A DNA stretch of 64,000 bases from Clostridia bacterium (lineage in GTDB: Bacteria; Bacillota; Clostridia; Oscillospirales; CAG-272). Both the position numbers and the translations under genes were made by a program. Under the pieces are notes generated by a model that was not told the DNA's origin, ran no database searches, and worked only from the letters and a program-made list of their open reading frames with translations. Positions 12,697 to 45,807 of the stretch are shown piece after piece. Location of the stretch: contig JAFQUJ010000012.1 of NCBI GenBank assembly GCA_017408585.1, positions 24,225-88,224 on the forward strand, written 5' to 3'. Numbering within the stretch: the first letter of the stretch is position 1; each line of letters starts with the position of its first letter.

Positions 12697-12818
12697 CAAT
12701 CTCGCCCGCGAGATTGCATATCATCAGTCGCTTGCGACTGTATCTCACCACGGCAGAGCCGTGTATCTCATCAACGCCTTGCGTTGTATCTCATCAGTCC
12801 GTAGGAATGTATATCATC
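12697..12818. repeat. Hairpin array 1 (TATCTCAT/TATATCAT linkers)
   Basis: Five consecutive hairpins: CAATCTCG/CGAGATTG, CAGTCGC/GCGACTG, CACGGC/GCCGTG, CAACGC/GCGTTG and the imperfect CAGTCC/GGAATG. They are joined by ATATCAT, TATCTCAC, TATCTCAT, TATCTCAT and TATATCAT. Linkers are nearly constant; every stem differs. Confidence 0.85.
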
Positions 12819-13490: not shown

Positions 13491-13563
13491 TATCGATATA
13501 AATCCCTTGCGGGATTTTCGATATGTTGCTAACGCAACTCGATATGCCTTCGGCTCGATATGC
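13491..13563. repeat. Hairpin array 2 (CGATATG linkers)
   Basis: Three hairpins, AAATCCC/GGGATTT, GTTGC/GCAAC and GCC/GGC, separated by CGATATA, CGATATG, CGATATG and CGATATG. The array begins four bases after the HAD stop codon. Confidence 0.8.
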
Positions 13564-15178: not shown

Positions 15179-15247
15179 GCTTGTGAAAGGGCGATAAAAA
15201 AATATTTTCGCCACTTTTTGTTTGATTTTGAACTGGCGCGTCCCAAT

Positions 15248-15415
15248 CACGCCAAAGGCGTGTATATCATCAAAACGAAGTTTTGTATATCACCAAGGCG
15301 AAAGCCTTGTATATCATCATTGCGAAAGAAGATACAGCCTACGGCTGATGATATACACCTTCGGTGATGATATCCACGACCGCGTCGTGATGATATACCA
15401 TTGCTTTCGCAATGG
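15248..15415. repeat. Hairpin array 3 (TATATCAT linkers, orientation flips mid-array)
   Basis: The left half has CACGCC/GGCGTG, CAAAAC/GTTTTG and CAAGGC/GCCTTG joined by TATATCAT or TATATCAC. A broken unit, CATTGCGAAAG, follows. The right half has CAGCC/GGCTG, CACC/GGTG, CACGAC/GTCGTG and CCATTGC/GCAATGG joined by ATGATATA-type linkers, the reverse complement of the left linkers. The broken unit complements part of the last hairpin. Confidence 0.85.
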
Positions 15416-15418
15416 ATA

Positions 15419-15454
15419 AAAAAATTCGACAAGTTGAAACTTGTCGAATTTTTT
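15419..15454. terminator. Terminator next to the copied tRNA-Ser 3' end
   Basis: AAAAAATTCGACAAG/CTTGTCGAATTTTTT stem with a six-base loop. On the minus strand it directly follows the second copy of the tRNA-Ser 3' end. Confidence 0.75.
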
Positions 15455-15696
15455 GGCGGAGAAGAGAAGATTTTCTAGGAACACAAGTGTTCCGTTGAAC
15501 TGTTGTCGTGTTCGCATCGCACTGCCCTCGCAAGCATCGGTTGTGTTCTGCGACGACTGCCACTCCTTATTCCTCGCTTTATCCTTCCCCGAAGGCGCTC
15601 GGAATCGTCCCTTCCACGCCGAGTAACCGACGCATTGGAAGCTCAAATCTTCCCTAAAAAGCAAAAAAGACAGGAACAAGTCCTGTCTTTTTTGCT
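15454..15696 (-). repeat. Element downstream of tRNA-Ser, bounded by tRNA-derived sequence
   Basis: On the minus strand, after tRNA-Ser and its terminator, comes an inverted copy of the T-arm (15653-15637, 15 of 17 positions) and a looser inverted match to the variable arm near 15617-15633. About 150 bases of body with small hairpins follow. The element ends with an exact direct copy of the tRNA 3' end (15473-15454). Overlapping frames look non-coding. Confidence 0.65.
15663..15693 (-). terminator. Terminator of tRNA-Ser
   Basis: AAAAAAGACAGGA/TCCTGTCTTTTTT stem four bases after the CCA end of the tRNA. Confidence 0.85.
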
Positions 15697-15787
15697 TGGC
15701 GGAGAAGAGAAGATTTGAACTTCCGCGCCGGTTACCCGACCTACACCCTTAGCAGGGGCGCCTCTTCGACCTCTTGAGTACTTCTCC
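15697..15787 (-). tRNA. tRNA-Ser (anticodon GCT)
   Basis: A 91-nt class II tRNA with encoded CCA. Acceptor GGAGAAG pairs with CTTCTCC, with discriminator G. The anticodon stem is CGCCC/GGGTG around loop CTGCTAA (anticodon GCT, reading AGC/AGU). A long variable arm, GTCGG-GTAA-CCGGC, identifies serine, and the T-arm is GGAAG-TTCAAAT-CTTCT. Its 3' end is copied at 15454. Confidence 0.95.
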
Positions 15788-45263: not shown

Positions 45264-45382
45264 AAATGCGACACAGGGTTAGGCATAGTGCCAAGGGCGC
45301 TATGCGTCGATATAAATTTGCTGTCGCAAATTTTCGATATATTACTGACGCAACTCGATATGTGCTGATACACACGATATGC
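45264..45382. repeat. Hairpin array 4a (CGATAT linkers) with leader
   Basis: The leader AAATGCGACACAGGG (45264-45278) recurs exactly at 45405-45419. After it come a GGCATAGTGCC/GGCGCTATGC-like palindrome and hairpins AAATTTG/GCAAATTT and GTG/CAC, with an imperfect unit between. The hairpins are joined by CGATATA, CGATATA, CGATATG and ACGATATG. Confidence 0.75.
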
Positions 45383-45404
45383 TCTTAGGGGCGCTAAAGG
45401 TTCA

Positions 45405-45624
45405 AAATGCGACACAGGGGAAGGGTTTTTGAGTGCGGAATGCGGAGTGCGGAATGAGGAATGAATTGTGCCTTTGGCACATGAATTGCAACTGCGTTGC
45501 ATGAATTGAACGCAAGCGTTCATGATTTGCTCCTATGGAGCATTAATGCACACAAGGTGTGCAATTCATGACACAGGGTGTCAATTAATGGCGTTAGCCA
45601 ATTCGCGTGCGAAGCGCAATTCAT
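45405..45624. repeat. Hairpin array 4b (ATGAATT linkers, orientation flips mid-array)
   Basis: The leader AAATGCGACACAGGG is followed by a GGAAT/GGAGT-rich run. Hairpins follow: GTGCC/GGCAC, GCAAC/GTTGC, GAACGC/GCGTTC, GCTCC/GGAGC, GCACAC/GTGTGC, GACAC/GTGTC, GGC/GCC and an imperfect GTGC/GCGC. The linker is ATGAATT, then ATGATTT, then ATTAAT; from the fifth hairpin on it becomes AATTCAT or AATTAAT, the reverse complement. Confidence 0.85.
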
Positions 45625-45629
45625 TTTGG

Positions 45630-45721
45630 TCGATATGTCCTAACGGACTCGATATGTTGCTAACGCAACTCGATATGTCAGCGTTGCTGACTCGATATGC
45701 TCCTACGGAGCGTTCGATTTG
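45630..45721. repeat. Hairpin array 4c (CTCGATATG linkers)
   Basis: Hairpins TCC/GGA, TTGC/GCAA, TCAGC/GCTGA and CTCC/GGAG joined by CTCGATATG; it ends with a decayed linker, CGTTCGATTTG. The TTGC-TAAC-GCAA unit matches one in array 2. Confidence 0.85.
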
Positions 45722-45807
45722 CCCACAGGGGCTCCCTGTTGGCTCTCGGCTCGCGCTGAGTTAATGTGAAAAATAGATGAATTTTCTAAAATTATAAAAT
45801 ATTGTTA

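Follow-up and report, generated by a model that had tools for sequence, protein, structure and literature searches.

The hairpin array at positions 45405..45624 of the window (the whole stretch of 64,000 nucleotides that was analysed) belongs to a two-arm repeat that is dispersed through its genome, and repeats of this design stand beside many genes of the S23 family. With moderate confidence we interpret the array as a dispersed copy, without a gene of its own, of the repeat found with these S23/IVP genes, in a REPIN/RAYT-like system where the partner is an S23 protein, the linker heptamer is the sequence bound by it and the hairpins are self-folding spacers. Such a system would explain the seemingly paradoxical combination of conserved linkers and free stems. 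It would also join, through cognate repeats, the S23/IVP proteins, described as having no known function in the available part of PMC4990558, and the role-less candidate Gut-1, and it suggests a concrete ligand.

Structure and dispersal of the hairpin array

The original prediction, made from the sequence of the window, was of at least seven consecutive hairpins whose stems all differ while the 7-nt linker stays nearly the same, and this structure was recovered. Six perfect hairpins follow one another at 45467-45583 on the forward strand: TGTGCC-TTT-GGCACA (45467..45481), TGCAAC-TGC-GTTGCA (45487..45501), TGAACG-CAAG-CGTTCA (45507..45522), TGCTCC-TAT-GGAGCA (45528..45542), TGCACAC-AAG-GTGTGCA (45547..45563) and TGACAC-AGG-GTGTCA (45569..45583). 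On the same strand there is a seventh, TGGC-GTTA-GCCA (TGGCGTTAGCCA, 45589..45600), and an imperfect eighth, GCGTGCGAAGCGC (45605..45617). The linker is ATGAATT or its reverse complement as predicted, with the minor variants ATGATTT and ATTAAT. It was further found to switch from ATGAATT to AATTCAT at the middle of the array, near the fifth hairpin, and the family-A array as a whole, with its two inverted arms, was not assigned to a strand. The open reading frames that overlie it are mechanical. A chance origin was rejected, since runs of six hairpins were absent from 20 dinucleotide-preserving shuffles of the window and 19 sampled stretches (387 kb), in which the longest run was 3. In the same 387 kb, runs of at least three hairpins numbered 19 in the real sequence, not all of them arrays, against 0–5 per shuffle.

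Directly ahead of the array and leading into its first ATGAATT linker, 7-bp tandem direct repeats (GTGCGGA/ATGCGGA/ATGAGGA) were seen at 45431..45467 of the forward strand. The self-match of this segment at lag 7 was 20 of 25 positions, as against 5–8 at any other lag between 4 and 10. Its heptamers GTGCGGA and ATGCGGA are similar to the repeat that accompanies another S23 clade (L329, L340, L359 and L360).

Designs of the same type with other linkers, predicted at 12697, 13491, 15248, 45264 and 45630, were all present in the window. On the forward strand these included a hairpin arm with TATCTCAT/TATATCAT linkers at 12697..12815, D-like by its linkers, and three arms of family B (TCGATAT), one at 13493..13561, a decayed one at 45307..45390 and one of four hairpins at 45630..45711 that has the forward arm only. 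A gene-less family-D array (TATATCAT/ATGATATA) with its terminator occupies 15241..15454 of the reverse strand. A composite A+B repeat at 45448..45744 (forward strand) was 96.6% identical over 297 bp to G000:C8:20403-20699, where G000 denotes the genome of the window, a metagenome-assembled genome of 1.48 Mb that is 69% complete.

A BLAST search of this genome with 45405-45630 as query returned 49 matches, 18 of them above 100 bits; apart from the query itself these 18 were 90–98% identical and often truncated. The copies were mosaic, with the order of stems preserved between them. The claim that the stems are all different thus held within the array and failed within the genome, where identical stems recur in identical order in other copies. 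The family-B pattern was also matched 49 times in the genome, and the exact pattern GCATGAATTGN{5,30}CATGAATTG had no match there.

Among 28 genus loci, the region upstream of the orthologous ABC-transporter gene contained an array in the window locus only, and linker words in that region numbered 13 in the window as against 0–4 elsewhere (L271 being unorientable). In two close relatives (86–87% protein identity) the divergent glycosyltransferase gene was kept and the array was absent, as judged by eye. Among features of MITEs, inverted arms were seen; no clean target-site duplication was readable at the orthologous locus, the flanks being too diverged.

The family-D array of the window (15241-15454) was identical at 199 of 214 positions (93%) to the array upstream of an S23 gene of the same genome (G000:C4:57398-57682), so that a gene-less array is matched to an S23-linked one, and the homology stops at the array edge on the gene side. 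By eye, the other end of the homology between D arrays is a tRNA 3' end, with a different tRNA at each place. In the window a partial duplicate of the tRNA-Ser 3' end (15455..15475, reverse strand, by eye) abuts the family-D unit, roughly 220 bp from the intact gene (15697-15787). An old integration at tRNA-Ser would be expected to leave such a partial duplicate next to the D array.

The design recurs well beyond this genome. Matches to CTCGATATG-N6-20-CTCGATAT were found in 12 of 57 genomes including that of the window, with none for the backwards control, and the inserts were by eye mostly hairpins with few exceptions. The pattern CATGAATTG-N6-20-CATGAATTG was matched in 29 of 391 genomes of the class, again including that of the window, as against one match in total for its backwards control. 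In other families of the class the same linkers recur with different, still paired stems; linkers are accordingly conserved and stems variable between genomes. Some genomes of the class are rich in the repeat family; one of 2.2 Mb, for example, held 208 family-B pattern matches. Arrays were thus found elsewhere both in the genome and in relatives, and the outcome named as refuting the original prediction was not encountered.

That pairing is kept while the stem sequence changes was also supported. From four linker families, 475 distinct inserts between identical linkers were collected, excluding the contig-scan loci L140-L219, where gut Clostridia arrays were mixed, among the matches listed, with chance matches from other phyla. 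Perfect hairpins made up 323 of these inserts, and 386 paired with at most one mismatch, compared with 30 when each insert was shuffled. The covariation expected of the stems was evaluated in one element family, in which 7 of 18 consensus pairs had two-sided changes among 36 aligned copies; six of the original 42 copies had been dropped by eye, mostly because the left arm was missing, and a few of the retained rows also have no left arm.

Loops were found to be polar. Read on the strand where the linker is AATTCAT, ATATCGA, ATTTAGC or ATATCGC, 148 of the 323 perfect hairpins had GNA or GNNA loops and 2 had TNC or TNNC loops, the remainder having others. As linker and loop flip together at mid-array, the element consists of two inverted arms. 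The linkers per arm were mostly 4–7, with a range of 1–7 in a count allowing one mismatch, which is compatible with a pentamer. Families B and G fix the linker length at 7 nt; in families A, F, E and H a linker of 5 or 9 nt fits equally well because the first stem pair is constant.

Arrays and heptamers beside S23 genes

Reading of the flanks revealed four-helix-bundle genes behind several arrays, which led to a test of association with PF05635 (23S_rRNA_IVP, S23; TIGR02436). The family was found in 33 of 42 genomes chosen by hand (20 array-rich, 22 array-poor or controls). Three proteins of the window genome exceeded the curated PF05635 cut-off of 33.8 at 99.8, 87.5 and 62.7 bits, two of them scored 101 and 114 bits against TIGR02436 (cut-off 24), and a solved relative was identified (2rld, E=4e-23). 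The three genes are of A type (G000:C19:17575), D type (C4:57398) and F type (C4:152825). The S23 loci comprised 30 from the search and 60 further ones that were fetched, of which 89 were used as L410 was not located.

An array was called by a strict detector at 51 of these 89 loci, or 49 of 86 without three places that had been fetched twice. The corresponding figure for control loci was 1 of 28, the one being the window's own array, and three shuffles of the PF05635 loci gave 0, 0 and 0 of 90. Of the arrays, 51 were upstream of the S23 gene at a distance of up to 330 bp, 8 were downstream of it and 4 were more distant. The remaining 38 of the 89 loci had no array by the strict detector; arrays it had overlooked were seen by eye at L335, L339, L346, L358 and L405, and some of the other array-negative loci carry direct heptamers. 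The S23 gene at L405 (G016:C12:148531) stands with a further linker type, GATTACATA, so the linker families exceed those listed here. Linkers recorded beside S23 genes were ATGAATT, TCGATAT, GCGATAT, GCTAAAT, TGAAATA, GTGATAT, TGATATA, GATGTT and GTGAAGT, among others.

Linker type follows the S23 protein clade. On a tree of 71 of 81 S23 proteins (short, mis-framed and identical rows were dropped, and labels derive from hand-chosen word counts) the linker label changed 22 times, compared with a mean of 53.1 for shuffled labels, and none of 200 shuffles was as low. The nine TCGATAT genes grouped together with a support of 98, and their sister group has GCGATAT linkers as well as one GTTATAT. 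Rows within one clade come from different host families, and two of the 71 rows, L359 and L378, had a linker label foreign to their clade. Linked inheritance alone could account for much of this match.

A tRNA or tmRNA of the same strand precedes 29 of 87 S23 genes by no more than 600 bp, as against such a position for 0.66% of positions in the 387-kb sample of the window genome, and the 28 control loci contained no tRNA. Outside the class, 28 S23 loci from elsewhere in the phylum yielded no hairpin array; the one call made there by the detector is a tandem direct repeat. Nothing tying the repeats to S23/PF05635 genes was found in the literature covered, which consisted of titles and the starts of abstracts with subscription papers mostly outside it.

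Heptamers also occur at S23 genes without hairpins. At S23 genes of the same class that lack arrays, 7-bp tandem repeats were present in 21 of 23 rows, and in 22 of 23 on a rerun; the rows were picked by eye and two of them represent one place. In S23 flanks from other classes, 19 of 28 loci being orientable, tandem repeats beyond all shuffles were found in 21 of 38, with 20 of these at lag 7, compared with 3 of 56 control flanks and none at lag 7. Judging from these loci (L415-L442), flanking heptamers may be a more general trait of S23 elements, and the S23 reading frame of Coxiella is likewise reported to be preceded by tandem heptamers (PMC4990558). At L418, L420, L421 and L425 the heptamer repeats were by eye inverted across the gene.

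Co-occurrence of arrays and S23 genes among genomes was less uniform. All 8 genomes with a B-type S23 gene had at least four family-B matches, as did 9 of 34 others (p=2e-4), and all 7 with an F-type gene had at least three family-F matches, as did 9 of 35 others (p=4e-4). The types were taken from the protein tree, except that G192, a partial protein, was placed in type F by eye, and its omission raises p. Because as many as 6 matches can come from a cis array by itself, a threshold of 13 is fairer, and the comparison at low thresholds mostly restates cis linkage. At 13 matches or more the counts were 6 of 8 versus 4 of 34 for family B (p=9e-4) and 1 of 7 versus 3 of 35 for family F (p=0.5). 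Across the class, with cis arrays included, 25 of the 29 genomes holding family-A arrays had an S23-like gene, compared with 68 of the 362 that hold none (p=2e-13). In several genomes many arrays were also found with no cognate gene detected: G108 had 46 family-F matches and no F-type gene, G225 had 16 family-A matches and no S23 gene over the PF05635 search, and in the window genome, 69% complete, none of the three S23 genes detected is of B type despite its 49 B-pattern matches. The idea that arrays strictly require a cognate S23 gene was rejected on account of these genomes and of the absence of an effect for family F once cis matches were allowed for.

A proposed heptamer-binding model and its alternatives

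In the preferred reading a complete unit would consist of a two-arm array and an S23 gene, the array usually lying just upstream. Each arm would hold mostly 4–7 cognate heptamers separated by short hairpins, the two arms being inverted, and array-only copies would have spread through the genome. The S23 protein may form a ring like its Xanthomonas relative, which is a homopentameric toroid (PMC4990558), and in that form would bind the row of heptamers. Hairpins folding out would turn ATGAATT-hairpin-ATGAATT-hairpin into tandem heptamers. This is the arrangement that S23 genes of other clades carry directly. On the simplest reading a row of heptamers would be the target of S23, and the heptamer is probably the unit that S23 recognises. 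The hairpins would then act as self-folding spacers whose sequence is free provided that folding is kept, and C-GNA-G loops would favour their extrusion from supercoiled DNA. Hairpins of the N4 promoters with a C:G closing pair and a G..A loop are reported to extrude at physiological supercoiling, their non-conserved stem bases being free if the hairpin is kept (PMC4496689). We infer extrusion of the hairpins, spread in trans and a parent among the two matched family-D arrays.

A broader generalisation is offered more tentatively. S23 rings may read tandem heptamers, one per subunit, in extruded single-stranded DNA or in RNA, with one class of bacteria spacing the heptamers by self-folding hairpins. 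Array and S23 gene together would form a class of selfish elements that lack their own transposase. One arm of one such element would be Gut-1, and the intervening sequences of 23S rRNA would be another branch.

The original prediction held that pairing is under selection, as RNA or as cruciform DNA, or that template switching makes new palindromes beside a fixed linker. The persistence of pairing agrees with selection; an explanation in RNA alone was countered from several sides, while Gut-1 favours it. On such an explanation the array is transcribed and its pairing selected in RNA, either as a Gut-1-like noncoding RNA or as a leader or operator of the S23 gene, and dispersed copies represent duplications or a regulon. 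Rfam Gut-1 (RF01706) matched arms at gathering score in 9 of 52 S23 loci scanned (L345, L361, L363, L366, L369, L383, L389, L412 and L327), and the available part of PMC2864571 presents it as a proposed noncoding RNA, seen in human gut metagenomes alone. At two of these loci, L345 and L369, it matched both strands of one array, and GNA loops lie on opposite strands in the two arms; both observations speak against the RNA explanation. None of the 8 family-A element loci reached the gathering score, and the window array had a sub-threshold match at 45447..45512 on the forward strand (25.1 bits against a cut-off of 50, E=0.012), the single gathering match in the window being a tRNA.

The position of arrays relative to promoters is similarly divided. 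By eye, arrays of families A, B, F and G are often between a sigma-A-like promoter and the start codon, as an RNA would require, whereas those of families D, E and H are upstream of the promoter. A TTGAAA-N17-TATAAT-like promoter often immediately precedes family-A elements (L126, L127, L129, L130, L115 and L116; by eye), and some arrays are therefore probably transcribed. GNRA-like loops and two-sided changes at consensus pairs also fit a structured RNA. Single mismatches, read on the loop-conserved strand, numbered 20 for G.T, 18 for A.C and 25 for others; since no wobble bias is present there is no sign of a constraint carried by one RNA strand alone, and a strand-specific RNA signature through wobble pairs was rejected. 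The window array moreover has unrelated genes on either side and was not present upstream of the 27 other orthologues examined. We regard the RNA explanation as rather unlikely.

Ordinary REP- or MITE-type repeats moved by a conventional transposase, with S23 genes as passengers within them, would account for dispersed intergenic repeats with inverted arms, which resemble REPINs and MITEs, and for arrays in genomes without a detected S23 gene. The arrays at 51 of 89 S23 loci, mostly immediately upstream, the agreement of linker with S23 clade and the heptamer repeats at most array-less S23 genes of the same class speak weakly against passengers, and we consider this origin improbable. Purely mutational upkeep, in which template switching during replication makes and repairs palindromes beside a fixed linker and the array has no function, is very improbable. 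It fits the fact that stems stay perfect while changing (323 of 475), to which template switching may still contribute, and leaves without explanation a linker conserved across host families, the loop polarity of 148 to 2, the two-arm layout and the S23 association. Copying by a reverse transcriptase was rejected as a requirement, since RVT_1 was detected in only 12 of 42 genomes; it was not found in the other 30, including the window's and the genome richest in B and F matches.

Relation to known systems

TRAP is a ring protein that reads one short repeat per subunit on tandem RNA repeats; it differs from S23 in fold and repeat length and serves as an analogy only. The vRNAP promoters of phage N4 are likewise short hairpins with a C:G closing pair, a G..A loop and partly free stems. 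They are read by an RNA polymerase and thus provide an analogy for extrusion only (PMC4496689).

Avd of diversity-generating retroelements (DGRs) resembles PF05635 in sequence and structure (PMC10053308). The genomes searched differ in that reverse transcriptases were mostly absent from them. A reverse transcriptase beside the Avd gene characterises DGRs, and by the coordinates listed RVT_1 was found beside a PF05635 hit only in G157:C9 and G214:C19. Both hits score below the PF05635 cut-off, and the two sites (G157:C9:47839-49354 and G214:C19:19023-20505) have the appearance of genuine Avd-RT pairs of DGRs.

The intervening sequences of 23S rRNA share the protein family with the arrays, have been called selfish elements and include the Coxiella case of tandem heptamers before the reading frame (PMC4990558). 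Insertion inside a 23S rRNA gene was not observed here: the Rfam scan of 52 S23 loci returned tRNAs, one tmRNA, one lysine riboswitch and Gut-1, and no rRNA, and S23 genes lie instead behind tRNA or tmRNA genes in a third of cases (29 of 87). Hairpin-spaced arrays and gene-less copies are absent from the available part of the description of these sequences (PMC4990558).

Gut-1 corresponds to one arm of arrays of the GTGAAAT type, with three hairpins of variable stem, constant 7-nt linkers and CUUCG loops. Its description, in the part of PMC2864571 available, omits S23 genes, the inverted second arm and the other linker families. Matches beside S23 genes thus provide an orphan RNA family with a neighbour gene. 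One arm type of the repeat system is accordingly already known as Gut-1, and the S23 link is absent from the literature searched.

The closest system in behaviour is REPIN-RAYT, in which each transposase has its own adjacent repeat as well as dispersed gene-less copies (PMC3116915). The arrays share with it dispersed non-autonomous palindromic repeats with two inverted arms, a partner gene beside its own repeat type and several flavours per genome (PMC3116915), and gene-less copies with two inverted repeats were found dispersed here. They differ in that the partner found for them is S23/PF05635, whereas that of REPINs, RAYT, is an HUH Y1 transposase (PF01797; PMC3116915). REP elements moreover conserve the palindrome (PMC3116915), whereas in the arrays no conserved palindromic core was found: the linker heptamer is conserved, with mostly 4–7 units per arm, and the palindrome varies between genomes. 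On present evidence the arrays are thus not members of the REPIN-RAYT system, to which they come closest, and their own association with S23 genes and their architecture are well supported.
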